DNA of 64,000 nucleotides from Opitutales bacterium (lineage in GTDB: Bacteria; Verrucomicrobiota; Verrucomicrobiia; Opitutales; Oceanipulchritudinaceae). Made by a program: the position numbers and the translations under genes. Positions within the stretch are counted from its first letter, which is position 1, and each line of letters opens with the position of its first letter. This document shows positions 26,054 to 31,306 of the stretch, one piece after another. Location: assembly GCA_016932335.1 (NCBI GenBank), contig JAFGCZ010000007.1:18844-82843 (forward strand). The letters run 5' to 3'. The notes beneath the pieces are model-generated. The model saw only the letters and a program-made list of their open reading frames with translations, was not told where the DNA came from and ran no database searches.

Positions 26054-26581
26054 AACAGGTGATCCTCAAGTGGATGCGGAGATCGAGATGCTTGAGGTAT
26101 CGTTGCGGATTATCAAAAAGAGTTTCAACAACTAAAAAGTGCTATTGAGAACGCTGGGGAATATGAACTGAAAAAATCAATGGATTGCGGTCATCTTGTC
26201 TTATCCAAAAGTAATGCCCCAGACAATACACCGATTTATCACGAGGCCTTACAAACGATTGAGCGCATTCTTGATCTAGGCAATCTTGAGGATTTCGGTT
26301 TTGAGGTAGTCAAAGGTCGGGTGGTTTCTCCCGAACGTAACAATAAGGTCTTTATAACAAAGGTGGACCTGAGCCGCATTGCTAAAGCAATTGATGTTAG
26401 TCATGGAAGGCTGACGGGATTGCCGGGGGGATGTAGCACCAGTTGTATTGCATGCAGGGCGCCTCACTGCCGATGGCATTGAACAACTGGCGTATGAAAG
26501 CAAAAGGCGTGGAAAAGGCTATATAATTAGCATTCCTCAAGGATGTCTCCTCGCCCCCCTCTATACTATACATTTCCCCAT
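26054..26581 (+). pseudogene. Frameshifted gene remnant at the left edge of the island
   Basis: Three coding-like segments lie in successive frames: GDPQVDAEIEMLEVSLR, then DYQKEFQQLKSAIENAGEYE running on through the 26180 ORF to SHGRLTGLPGG, then DVAPVVLHAGRLTADGIEQL to the end. One base change near 26105 and another at the G6 run (26425-26430) would join them into one protein of roughly 170 residues. The 5' end abuts the nrdJ terminator with no start codon, so it is truncated as well. No family was recognised. A sequencing error at G6 is possible for the second break. Confidence 0.5.
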
Positions 26582-26970
26582 CAAGGGTACGATTTCTGAA
26601 AGGAGTCTATTCTGTGCGGAAATACATGAGTGGTCATTCGTTCGGTAAGGTGTTGTCTCGCATTAAGTAATGTCGCTTCAGCTGCGGGGCGAGCTATAGT
26701 CTTGCACTTCCTAGAGACCCTCCCTCTCTTTCATTTGACCGAAATGACCCCTTTATGCCGCATCAAGGGTAAGCAATCTGAAAAGAGTCCTTCCCTGTAG
26801 AGAATTCCTGAAAATCGAACCTTGTTTTCAAAATACCTTGATATCCAGATAGATGTGATATTTTGTTTCGGGGGGTGGGGATAATAAAACAGACGGATAA
26901 GTAAGTGGTTTGCCTAATTTTATTCCAGCCAGAGGGGTACGATTTTTGAAAGCCATGCTCTGTTTCCGCT
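26579..26970 (+). repeat. Three degenerate copies of an approximately 38-nt motif
   Basis: Copies begin at 26579 (CATCAAGGGTACGATTTC), 26761 (CATCAAGGGTAAGCAATC) and about 26929 (CCAGAGGGGTACGATTTT). Each continues with TGAAA(G/A) and later a CTGT/TGT. Spacing is about 182 and 168 nt. Apart from these the stretch 26650-26905 holds no credible gene. Confidence 0.4.
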
Positions 26971-27411: not shown

Positions 27412-27653
27412 ACCGCTAATCGAATATCCCTCTCATATGTTACTTGGCATCCTGAGTCTCAGGGATTCTCACTAGGGCATGCCCTAGTGAGAGTGGCAAC
27501 AAACCTGAAACACCTCCACTGAATCCCGCCCTGGAATAACCTAGTATAACGGTGGAGTAAGAACTTTTTTTAGAACGTCGAGGACAGGTGCGGCGTTAGT
27601 CGTTGCCTGCTCCGCCTTGTTCGCCCTGTTTTTTATGAGTTGACATGAGGTGA
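27412..27653. other. Non-coding stretch before the methyltransferase gene
   Basis: No ORF. It contains the 26-bp palindrome described separately and a second inverted pair, CTCCAC / GTGGAG (about 27514-27555), followed by a T7 run near 27565, which may be a weak terminator. The methyltransferase promoter must lie in this stretch. Confidence 0.4.
27467..27492. repeat. 26-bp perfect palindrome
   Basis: TCTCACTAGGGCA followed immediately by its exact reverse complement, with no spacer. Lacking a loop and a T-run it is a poor terminator. It looks like an operator for a dimeric DNA-binding protein or a recombination or cruciform site. It lies 160 bp upstream of the methyltransferase gene. Confidence 0.85.
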
Positions 27654-28658
27654 ATGGATGCTACTTATAGTCATCAGATGAATTTTATTCCTCACAATAC
27701 TATACAGGAAGGTGATACACGCGCAATCATGAAGCGGATTGCGGACTCATCTGTTGCTCTGTCTTTCTGGTCTCCGCCTTATTTTCTGGGAAAAGAATAC
27801 GAAGCAGGCGAAAGCTATGAGTCATGGCAGAATCTCCTCGAGGAAACTATTACTCTCCACATGAAAGTCCTTAAACCGGGCGGCTTTCTAGTAGTAAATA
27901 TCGCTGACATCTTATGCTTTGCAGATCCTCAGATGCCTAAAATCCAAGCTCTCAACATTAGCAAACAGAAATGTAAGGTAACGAGAGAGATGGTGATTGA
28001 GGCAAAGAAGGAAAATCCATCATACAACCGAAATCAACTGGCTGAACTGTTGGGATGCTCTGAGCAGACAATCGACAGGCGACTTAACGGGAATAACATA
28101 AGAGGGGGAAAATACCAAACGCAAACCCGCGTTAAGTTGGTAGGTGGGAACCTAGAAAAATATGCGCTGAACGCAGGTCTATATCTATATGACAAACGTA
28201 TTTGGATTAAAGATCCGGCATGGGCAAACTCTAGATGGGTATCTAATACCCTAAAAGCAGTATCAGAAACCGAGGATCTCTACATATTTTGGAAGCCCGG
28301 TGAATATACTATAGATAGACGAAAACTCTCGGATTCTGAGTGGAAAGAATGGGGCAGTCGGCAGACTTGGTTTATCGACTCGGTGAGGAAAAATGATGAT
28401 CACGAAGCGAAGTTTCCTATAGATCTAGCTAGAAGAGTAATCAGGTTATACTCAGACAAGGGAGATCTAATACTCGATCCATTTGTTGGTTCAGGGACAA
28501 CAGCCATAGCTGCGACGGAACTGCAACGGAATTACATTGGTATAGATAAAGAGAAAAAATACGTGTCCTTGGCTAGGAGAAACATAGAAATAGCTACACA
28601 ACAGATGGCATTTGATCTAAAGTCTGAACACGCCACTGATCTATCTGCTGTAAAATAG
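27654..28658 (+). CDS. Type II DNA methyltransferase (beta class, N4-cytosine type), BglI-like system
   Basis: 334 aa. Catalytic motif IV is SPPY (in SFWSPPYF) near residue 40, and the AdoMet motif I FVGSGTT lies near residue 280. This is the beta-class order. SPPY is typical of N4-cytosine enzymes. LKPGGFLVVNIADI is motif V-like. Residues of about 125-150 (NRNQLAELLGCSEQTIDRRL) read as a helix-turn-helix inside the enzyme, which could be the target-recognition part or a regulatory insert. Its 3' end overlaps the convergent endonuclease gene by 65 nt. A C-box-like site lies just inside its start, so the controller protein probably represses it. Confidence 0.85.
   Translation: MDATYSHQMNFIPHNTIQEGDTRAIMKRIADSSVALSFWSPPYFLGKEYEAGESYESWQNLLEETITLHMKVLKPGGFLVVNIADILCFADPQMPKIQALNISKQKCKVTREMVIEAKKENPSYNRNQLAELLGCSEQTIDRRLNGNNIRGGKYQTQTRVKLVGGNLEKYALNAGLYLYDKRIWIKDPAWANSRWVSNTLKAVSETEDLYIFWKPGEYTIDRRKLSDSEWKEWGSRQTWFIDSVRKNDDHEAKFPIDLARRVIRLYSDKGDLILDPFVGSGTTAIAATELQRNYIGIDKEKKYVSLARRNIEIATQQMAFDLKSEHATDLSAVK
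27659..27676 (+). promoter_or_regulatory. Single C-box-like site in the first codons of the methyltransferase
   Basis: TGCTACTTATAGTCATCA. The first 14 nt are identical to the first half of the C-gene operator (29747-29760, minus strand), and TATAGTCATCA repeats the end of its second half. Confidence 0.65.
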
Positions 28659-29493
28659 GAAATGAGATTCTAGCTCGAACTTTTAATGGGTTCTTTCCTT
28701 TGTCGTCCTTTCCTGGATAAAGCAATTCAGGAAAACTTTCTAAATAGTTGGGGTTCTCGGTAAGAAGAAGGCCATTCGGTATTGCTGCCACGGTAATTTT
28801 ATTTAGGGGCTGGCCTCGTAATTCATGATCGTCCAAACTCAACATCTTGTAGACTGGTTTTGCGATAAGCATAACCACGGGAAGGATACTCCCGTCACTT
28901 AGAATGTAAATTGGTGGAACAGAGCAGTGGAATGGATGAGAAGTTCTCTTCCCTGTTGCTGTGAGAATCTTATTCCTCAAACCGATAAACTCATTGTCCC
29001 ATACTCCATCACCTGAAATTTGATTATGACTCATAACCGCGTGATCAAAGTCATCTCTTGGGCCAACTGATTTAATATCTATAAAAACCCAAGCAGAGTT
29101 GGTCAGCCCGTGTGTAATATCTCGGATAAAGTCTGATTTGATTACAAATCTTTGATCCGCCCCAGTTGGCAAACCTACATCCTTAGCATTAAATTTTTGG
29201 AAGTAGTGATAGAGCCGAGTTCCTAATGCGTGCTCTCCAACCTCAATCCACGGAAATTGATCGCCCCTCGGTGATCTACCTCTTTCATCAGGAGGGTAAT
29301 TTTTCCAAAATGGATACAGGAAACTCGCTTCGTTATAGTTTCTGGTTATCTCCTCCAGATCACTGCTTATACTTCTAAACAAGAAAGTTGTAATCTTCTT
29401 CTCTAGCTCAATTAGGAGATTGGGCTGCTCTATAAATGAATCTCTAGCTTTGTTGTAGAGTTCAAACTGAGTTTTAGAATGTTCCTCAAACAT
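28594..29493 (-). CDS. Type II restriction endonuclease, R.BglI homologue
   Basis: 299 aa from the ATG at 29493, which overlaps the C-gene stop by 8 nt. The track start lies inside the C gene. The sequence matches R.BglI as I remember it: YNEASFLYPFWKNYPP, PRGDQFPWIEVGEHALG, GLPTGADQRF, FIDIKSVGPRDDFDHAVMSHNQISG, PPIYILSDGS and PNGLLL. R.BglI is also 299 aa and cuts GCCNNNNNGGC. The catalytic pattern D...D-x-K is present (Asp in GADQR, DIK in FIDIKS). It should therefore be active and likely shares that target, subject to a REBASE comparison. Confidence 0.85.
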   Translation of the reverse strand: MFEEHSKTQFELYNKARDSFIEQPNLLIELEKKITTFLFRSISSDLEEITRNYNEASFLYPFWKNYPPDERGRSPRGDQFPWIEVGEHALGTRLYHYFQKFNAKDVGLPTGADQRFVIKSDFIRDITHGLTNSAWVFIDIKSVGPRDDFDHAVMSHNQISGDGVWDNEFIGLRNKILTATGKRTSHPFHCSVPPIYILSDGSILPVVMLIAKPVYKMLSLDDHELRGQPLNKITVAAIPNGLLLTENPNYLESFPELLYPGKDDKGKNPLKVRARISFPILQQIDQWRVQTLDQMPSVV

Positions 29494-29707
29494 CTTGAAG
29501 TAGCTCAGTAGGTTCCACTTCAAGGGCACTTGAAATTGCCTCAAGCGATTGTAGAGTTATGTTTCGTTCTCCTCTTTCGATTGCGCCAATGTATGTTCTG
29601 TGCAGATCACAAAGCTCAGCGAAAGCTTCTTGCGAGTAGCCTTTCTTTTTTCTGAGATCGCGAACCCGTGATCCGACGATTTTGAGGAGATTTGATTCCT
29701 GATTCAC
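29486..29707 (-). CDS. Controller (C) protein of the restriction-modification system
   Basis: 73 aa from a GTG at 29707. It is almost entirely an Xre-type HTH: VRDLRKKKGYSQEAFAELCDLHRTYIGAIERGERNITLQSLEAISSAL, with the helix 2-3 region typical of C.AhdI/C.Esp1396I-type proteins. C proteins bind as dimers upstream of their own gene, first activating and then repressing C and R transcription, which delays endonuclease until DNA is methylated. The gene overlaps the endonuclease gene by 8 nt (C then R), and its operator is 25 bp upstream. The ribosome site is weak, as is common for C genes. Confidence 0.88.
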   Translation of the reverse strand: MNQESNLLKIVGSRVRDLRKKKGYSQEAFAELCDLHRTYIGAIERGERNITLQSLEAISSALEVEPTELLQDV

Positions 29708-29731
29708 TCATTTCAGGATACCACAAATGAT

Positions 29732-29760
29732 GACTATATATCTACAGACTATAAGTAGCA
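29732..29760 (-). promoter_or_regulatory. Tandem C-box operator of the C-R operon
   Basis: On the minus strand TGCTACTTATAGTC, TGTA, then GATATATAGTCATCA. Two half-operators with ACT-TAT-AGTC and GAT-ATAT-AGTC cores stand about 15 bp apart, the layout of C.Esp1396I-type operators as I recall them. Confidence 0.75.
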
Positions 29761-29768
29761 TTATTTTA

Positions 29769-29812
29769 TTGGCGAACAGTGTTATTATGCGTAACTCAGT
29801 AGCGCATAACAT
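29769..29812. repeat. attC- or res-like inverted repeat, copy 1
   Basis: TTGGCGAACAGTGTTAT-T-ATGCG followed after 12 nt by CGCATAACAT. TTATGCG and CGCATAA are exact inverse complements. The left arm is a near-copy of the element at 30196-30220 and the right arm (AGTAGCGCATAACAT) of that at 30016-30030. Confidence 0.55.
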
Positions 29813-29834: not shown

Positions 29835-30020
29835 ATGGACAGAATGGATACTAGAAGCGGCCTAAGGGGTATCAAGGCAATTCATAAGACTATGACCTAT
29901 AAAAGGAAGAAAAAGCAAAGAAACAGTAAGGGTTATGCCATGCGGATCAAAGAAGCTGTCGAAGCAGGATCTACGATTTCTGAAAAAGCGAAAGTTGTTG
30001 AGTTTATTTTATACGAGTAG
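29835..30020 (+). CDS. Small basic protein in a cassette-like unit
   Basis: 61 aa, rich in Lys/Arg (TYKRKKKQRNSKGYAMRIKEAV), no family recognised. Its stop codon TAG is part of the 15-nt repeat AGTAGCGCATAACAT. That is how genes in integron cassettes end against the attC inverse core site. A ribosome site is not evident (GAGGGTG lies 5 nt before the ATG at 29835). It may be a real cassette ORF or only a spacer between repeats. Confidence 0.4.
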   Translation: MDRMDTRSGLRGIKAIHKTMTYKRKKKQRNSKGYAMRIKEAVEAGSTISEKAKVVEFILYE

Positions 30021-30220
30021 CGCATAACATCGGAAAAAACTGGAGCAAAGGAGGCGATTCAGGGCCTTTGAGTGACGCTTTTTTCTTGAATGAGGAGAGG
30101 ACTGGATTCCTGTTTGTTTGAGTGATGCTGTTTTAACCATCTGAAGAATAACATAATAGACAGGAAGAGGATAGATTTCCACCGTCGTCTCATGTTTGGC
30201 GATTACAGTGTTATGCGTAG
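30016..30220. repeat. attC- or res-like inverted repeat pair, copy 2
   Basis: The left arm AGTAGCGCATAACATCGG (30016) and right arm TTGGCGATTACAGTGTTATGCG (30196) carry the inverse complements CGCATAACA / TGTTATGCG plus ATCG / CGAT with unpaired bases between, an attC-like layout about 200 nt long. Between the arms no ORF is credible. Confidence 0.5.
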
Positions 30221-30377
30221 ATTTCCTTCCCGTGGATAATAATGGGAAAAGCGAAAGTCAGATCCCATTTAGCAACAGATTGGAAGCCTTTCAGGTATTC
30301 TCTTTAGGCCATCCCCTAGAGATAGATTTCAACCCGTCTCCAAAACCTATCAATATGTATGCGTTGACACACCCTAA

Positions 30378-30412: not shown

Positions 30413-31306
30413 ATGAAATACATATACGCCCGAGTCAGCACCGAGGAGCAGAACGTAAAGCAACAGGTACAGTACTTGGCTGATAAGTACGAACATGATG
30501 CTGTTGTGTCCGAAACCTTCACCGGAACGACCACCGAGCGCCCGAAGTTCCGAAAGCTACTCAAGGAGGTAAAACGCGGTGACACCATTATCGTGTATCA
30601 TGTGTCGCGGTTAGGCCGAAAAACGAGCGAAGTCCTGGAGACGGTAGAATTATTACTTTCCAAGAGTGTATCCGTGGTTGTGGACCAGCTTGAGGGGGTC
30701 GATATAACCAGCGGCGTGGGCAAGCTGCTCTTTACCATGCTTTCGGGATTAGCCGAACTCGAACGCGAAATGATGCTTGAGCGCCAGAGGGTGGGAATAT
30801 CCAGGGCCAAAGCAGAAGGAAAGTACCAAGGTCGGAAGAGGATAGACCCCGAGATTGTTCAATCAGCCAAAACGCTACTCGCCAGCGGAATGACTCGGCA
30901 AAAGGTAGCGGACCAATTGGGCATTGGGGTGGCAACGCTCTATCGCTACTGTCATGAGTCCATGTATGGCGATCATAGCGAAGCAATTGCTTTGTTATCG
31001 GATGAAACGCAGTTAAGCTTATTTACGAAATTTCTCCTCTCAAATTTTGAGAATATGCGCTCAGAAAGGTATGACATACTCACACAAATAGCTAAAAATC
31101 AGCTGCTAACACACACAAGTATGTTTTTACTATCTATATTCAAGGTTGCAGCTAAACTGATTTATCAGACATCGGCCATATGGCCTGTTCAAAAAAGCCC
31201 CGAACCAGAAGGTTCGGGGCTTTCTCTTATTTCAAATAAAGTTGTATCCACTCAATCGGGTGCAAAAGAAACCCCTGCATCTTTCGACGCAGGGTTTTTC
31301 GCTTAA
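30413..31306 (+). CDS. Serine recombinase (resolvase/invertase family) with abnormal C-terminus
   Basis: Residues 1-185 are a complete small serine recombinase: YARVSTEEQN with nucleophile Ser9, FTGTTTERPKFRKLL, VYHVSRLGRKTSEVL, LSGLAELEREMMLERQRVGISRAK, and a C-terminal HTH, GMTRQKVADQLGIGVATLYRY. Normal members end there. Here the frame continues about 110 residues, and its last part is encoded by two intrinsic terminators (SPEPEGSGLS and TPASFDAGFF are the hairpins). The native stop was evidently lost, probably by deletion or insertion at the island edge. The catalytic core looks intact. The repeats just upstream may be its sites. Confidence 0.85.
   Translation: MKYIYARVSTEEQNVKQQVQYLADKYEHDAVVSETFTGTTTERPKFRKLLKEVKRGDTIIVYHVSRLGRKTSEVLETVELLLSKSVSVVVDQLEGVDITSGVGKLLFTMLSGLAELEREMMLERQRVGISRAKAEGKYQGRKRIDPEIVQSAKTLLASGMTRQKVADQLGIGVATLYRYCHESMYGDHSEAIALLSDETQLSLFTKFLLSNFENMRSERYDILTQIAKNQLLTHTSMFLLSIFKVAAKLIYQTSAIWPVQKSPEPEGSGLSLISNKVVSTQSGAKETPASFDAGFFA
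31194..31223 (+). terminator. Terminator inside the recombinase ORF extension
   Basis: A 13-bp perfect stem, AAAGCCCCGAACC / GGTTCGGGGCTTT, AGAA loop, then CTCTTATTTC. Confidence 0.85.
31269..31300. terminator. Bidirectional terminator between the island and proC
   Basis: AAACCCCTGC / GCAGGGTTT with one bulged C; T-runs on both strands. It lies 22 nt beyond the proC stop (minus strand). Confidence 0.75.

Follow-up and report, generated by a model that had tools for sequence, protein, structure and literature searches.

In the Esp1396I restriction-modification (R-M) system, the controller protein (C) binds at OM, the transcription start of the methyltransferase gene (M), and represses M; at the C-R operon, binding at OL activates and binding at OR represses (PMC4041747). 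Repression of M by C through an operator of its own was called unusual when it was described for Esp1396I (PMC4041747). Leaderless C transcripts have been reported for systems of the AhdI/PvuII type (PMC4824078, PMC2997769, PMC5333194). Our search of open-access papers turned up none on regulation of BglI- or SfiI-type systems by a C protein.

The window, as we call the whole 64,000-nt stretch of DNA that was analyzed, carries a complete BglI-family type II R-M system with a controller protein, in the convergent order M-> <-R <-C. The methyltransferase (27678–28658, + strand; 326 amino acids from ATG 27678, the start preferred by comparison) belongs to the N6_N4_Mtase family (Pfam PF01555, E = 3e-43). 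A conserved segment between its catalytic motifs, NRNQLAELLGCSEQTIDRRLNGNNIRGGK (about 28034–28115), is also found in three relatives (L008–L010) and looks like an inserted helix-turn-helix. The endonuclease R (28594–29493, − strand; 299 amino acids) starts at ATG 29493, in agreement with its homologs, and matches PF14562 (E = 1.5e-114) and BglI (1dmu, E = 3e-72) over nearly its whole length, which makes it a BglI homolog; recognition of GCCNNNNNGGC is a trait of the BglI restriction endonuclease family. Searching plasmids and viral contigs with the R protein returned zero relatives. The C gene (29486–29707, − strand) has a GTG start and encodes a 73-amino-acid protein similar to C.AhdI (3e-14), C.BclI (3e-12), and C.Esp1396I (2e-10), as well as to the PADLOC Control_protein model (4e-24). 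This small Xre/HTH_3 gene lies directly upstream of R, overlaps the R start by 8 nt at its end, and is likely cotranscribed with it, as is characteristic of C-controlled type II systems. The DNA-contacting residues T36, Y37, R46, and S52 of C.Esp1396I are all kept in the window protein (T38, Y39, R48, and S54, respectively). A serine recombinase (Resolvase domain; 30413–31306) adjoins the R-M system and is a possible vehicle for its transfer.

Two adjacent dyad sites for C are predicted upstream of the C gene (29728–29760), the arrangement that marks C-controlled R-M systems: a distal site, OL (TGCTACTTATAGTCTGTA; 29743–29760, − strand), and a proximal site, OR (GTAGATATATAGTCATCA; 29728–29745, − strand), with a spacing of 15 bp between their AGTC elements. 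A first-pass annotation of this DNA had noted that a 14-nt word from this operator, TGCTACTTATAGTC, recurs at the beginning of M. The word is indeed exact in both places (27659–27672, + strand; 29747–29760, − strand), and neither the window nor the 2.1-Mb assembly contains another exact copy. Identity between the copies runs to 15 nt (ATGCTACTTATAGTC) and, imperfectly, to a 22-nt inverted pair (86%). Beyond the two copies, a scan of the 64 kb gave no site with fewer than three mismatches, and a pattern search of the 2.1-Mb assembly gave one extra similar site at one mismatch or less, on contig C2. The neighboring TATAGTCATCA had been taken for a copy of the other operator half, and it does repeat the outer half of OR (29728–29738, − strand). 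Because TGCTACTTATAGTC and TATAGTCATCA each match one outer half, the 18-bp site at 27659–27676 unites the outer half-sites of OL and OR. We refer to this single predicted C-protein site (TGCTACTTATAGTCATCA; 27659–27676, + strand) as OM. The full 18-bp word is unique, and a pattern search placed five other locations within three mismatches of it, the C operator among them.

Other repeats are present in the surrounding DNA. AGTAGCGCATAACAT occurs exactly twice, at 29798 and 30016 (regions 29771–29812 and 30014–30222), and ends of the form TTGGCGA..ACAGTGTTATGCG are also seen twice, near 29770–29790 and 30197–30217. Region 30014–30222 folds into a structure in which GCGCATAACA pairs with TGTTATGCGT (z = −2.1). 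It resembles integron attC-like recombination sites around the small ORF at 29835–30020, but it is long for such a site. Within 26576–26957, a 32-nt word, CCCCATCAAGGGTACGATTTCTGAAAGGAGTC, occurs three times, with copies 66–100% alike and spacings of 182 and 168 nt.

A genome scan with four M sequences yielded 80 loci, and a viral scan added 9 more. The C gene is next to M in 19 loci, 18 of which also contain R in the convergent arrangement of the window; the remaining locus (L012) has a C gene and no R match. Many relatives of the window M have no C gene, and one locus (L013, Celeribacter) contains R and M with no small regulator in front of R. The C-positive hosts span several phyla (Treponema and other spirochaetes, cyanobacteria, Bacteroidota, Chloroflexota, Acidobacteriota, Nitrosomonas, Vibrio, and others), although several are metagenome bins, and single host names are uncertain. 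In 10 of the 19 C-positive relatives, this 18-bp box also precedes M, in most cases following TTGACA. The majority of the remaining loci have a variant box that changes jointly with their own C operator; for instance, L085 has TGCTATCTTTAGAGT in both the C operator and the M upstream region, and L056 has TGCTAATCATAGTATG versus TGCTAATTATAGTATG at the two places. In two C-positive loci (L039 and L058), the M region had no clear site. Four relatives (L069, L077, L085, and L056) have lysine at the position equivalent to R46 of C.Esp1396I, a residue that contacts the G of GTC (PMC4041747).

An 18-bp matrix was built from the M-upstream boxes of the ten relatives only, with the window excluded. 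Applied to the 64-kb window, it ranked 27659–27676 first (27.7 bits), OL second (16.2 bits), and OR third (12.2 bits), and the next match scored 11.4. Leave-one-out scores upstream of M were higher in the 19 C-positive loci than in 68 C-negative loci, some of which, including L017, are truncated at a contig end (Mann-Whitney p = 5e-10), and probing each M-upstream region with the C operator of the same locus gave a Fisher-combined p of about 1e-12 (window included); both values are optimistic because the loci are related and not phylogenetically independent. The window was among the strongest loci in the own-operator probing, with a score of 15 compared with a maximum of 10 in 300 dinucleotide shuffles, which upholds the earlier judgment that the 14-nt match is improbable by chance. 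Pairs of C operator and M-upstream region from the same locus reached a total of 212.5 versus 166.7 for permuted pairs (sd 7.9), and none of 20,000 permutations attained 212.5; therefore, the M site and the C operator change together. A chance repeat, or a functionless leftover of a duplicated operator, would accord with a window M promoter that is imperfect by consensus, but the box, its placement, and its joint change with the C operator are conserved across relatives, and we regard this explanation as extremely improbable. The chance repeat was rejected on the shuffles, the relatives' matrix, and the permuted pairs, all of which are against it. Judging from its sequence and conservation, the repeated 14-letter word is thus very probably a genuine site of binding by the small controller protein.

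The position of this site relative to M depends on which start codon is used. Counting from the SPPY motif, ATG 27678 is 31 codons upstream, and most C-positive relatives start 29–32 codons upstream; ATG 27654 is 39 codons upstream, has no consistent counterpart among relatives, and is absent in nearly all. Three relatives served in the start-codon comparison only and have no C gene and no box: two from the phylum of the window genome (L009 and L010) and one on a Geoalkalibacter plasmid (L008). The plasmid (NZ_CP010312.1) encodes a 56% identical M, and no recognizable R or C was seen nearby. In three relatives (L011, L012, and L018), in-frame stops fall inside or just after the box, so the box region cannot be coding in these loci. 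GAGG at 27647–27650 leaves only 3 nt to ATG 27654, less than a normal ribosome-binding site requires. ATG 27678 has no ribosome-binding site, as expected for a leaderless mRNA. M is probably translated from ATG 27678, from a leaderless mRNA, and the upstream in-frame ATG with its 8-codon extension (27654–27677, + strand) is probably untranslated. This corrected start is likely, and longest-ORF annotation would miss it.

Since M would be read from ATG 27678 and the site ends at 27676, OM appears to be a promoter operator rather than an operator within the gene. The first-pass annotation had placed the site at codons 2–7 of the methyltransferase, which needs a start at ATG 27654, and had proposed repression by binding over the translation start with the site inside the ORF; the starts of homologs speak against the former, and the comparison of relatives does not support the latter. 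If M did start at ATG 27654, the C site would occupy codons 2–8, and bound C would stop elongation or translation inside the ORF. That ATG is in frame and the 8 extra codons are open, and in Kpn2I a C site within an ORF, there that of the C gene, serves as a roadblock to elongation (PMC6237814). We nevertheless consider such a mechanism quite unlikely given the evidence above on homologous starts, stops, and GAGG, and because the relatives' box sits at a fixed distance downstream of TTGACA, like a promoter element. It is decidedly improbable that both ATGs are used, such that a read-through transcript would give a longer M and C bound in the first codons would be an elongation roadblock. If true, an M roadblock from an in-ORF C site would have its only described precedent in the Kpn2I C gene.

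The promoter layout is clearest in the closest relatives, where TTGACA-N4-TGATGACTTTAAGTA[GTC]CAT immediately precedes the M start codon. From the first base of TTGACA to the start codon, the distance is 35 nt in L011, L014, and L026; L016 and L018 show 38 nt to the aligned residue, but their ATG is one codon earlier, which again gives 35. The 17 bp between TTGACA and TA[GTC]CAT in the relatives suggest that the A of the start codon is at about +1, a leaderless-like arrangement. In the window, TTGACA at 27640–27645 (+ strand) begins 38 nt before ATG 27678 and, by comparison with the relatives' boxes, is a candidate −35 element. TATAGT at 27666–27671 (+ strand), inside OM, is a candidate −10 element; with the A of ATG 27678 taken as +1, it would span −12 to −7. 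This is not a textbook promoter: the two hexamers are 20 bp apart, the hexamer at 17-bp spacing (ACTTAT) is poor, and a promoter scan of the window did not have the M promoter among its predicted sites. Either the window M promoter is weaker than those of its relatives, or another −35 element is used. The window box read on the other strand, TGATGACTATAAGTAGCA, is the reverse complement of the relatives' motif with one central base different. The box is therefore flipped and, compared with the closest relatives, shifted 6 bp toward the start codon (−19 to −2 rather than −25 to −8), so RNA polymerase contact must differ from that in the relatives. The box occupies the expected −10/transcription-start region of M. 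On the C-R side, TATCCT at 29715–29720 (− strand), 7 nt before the C GTG, is a candidate −10 element, and the C mRNA is likely leaderless.

The arrangement that we regard as very likely is an Esp1396I-like switch in a BglI-type system, with OM in the M promoter, OL and OR at C-R, and M read from ATG 27678. C would bind three sites, OL and OR before C-R and the single OM (27659–27676) in the M promoter. Before C builds up, the M promoter would drive M synthesis. Binding of one C dimer to OL would then activate the C-R operon, and a second dimer at OR would later repress it. One dimer at OM would cover the −10/transcription-start region, block RNA polymerase, and lower M once restriction is established. 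We infer C binding, the transcription start, and the direction of regulation from sequence and from analogy, and repression rather than activation of M from the position of the site and from Esp1396I. Esp1396I logic, with one dimer at M versus two at C-R, had been suggested from the outset; the comparison of relatives supports that part, and it argues against the variant with the site within the ORF. In favor of activation of M from OM, OL serves as an activating site for C at C-R in the systems that have been studied (PMC4041747), and the sequence of a site does not by itself give the direction of control. However, activators of the C family work from upstream, beside −35, whereas this box covers the −10/start region; M is needed before C exists; and identical placement represses in Esp1396I. 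Activation is highly unlikely, and repression of M by C at OM is the reading that we retain.

The third operator known from Esp1396I would thus be present in an enzyme lineage unrelated to Esp1396I, the BglI type, and in several phyla, suggesting that C control of both enzymes is commoner than one model system implies. The naturally co-varying pairs of C protein and operator at these loci could also be used for working out C-protein specificity.

Compared with described systems, the window C protein and its operators are close to the AhdI/PvuII type, with C.AhdI as the best PDB match and operators of the GACT-tat-AGTC type; in AhdI, however, M rather than C governs the M promoter (PMC5333194, PMC11736437). 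Kpn2I is like the switch proposed here in that C represses the M promoter, and an in-ORF C site is known there, but that site falls within the C gene, the Kpn2I C protein represents a different class, and the M and C genes are divergent (PMC6237814); at the window locus, the preferred ATG 27678 follows the site, and the C site is thus outside the ORF presumed to be translated. The closest likeness is to Esp1396I, which also has convergent C-R and M units, two dimer sites at C-R, and one at the M promoter/start (PMC4041747, PMC3758141). Window OR agrees with the printed Esp1396I 19OR (TGTGTGATTATAGTCAACA) at 13 of 19 positions; the outer half-site is TGCTAC in the window versus TGTGAC in Esp1396I, and the endonuclease and methyltransferase of Esp1396I belong to other families than the BglI-type enzymes of the window. 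With its convergent units, conserved C contacts, and a single C site at the predicted M promoter, the window system is, on sequence and by analogy, a new example of the Esp1396I switch in a BglI-type lineage.
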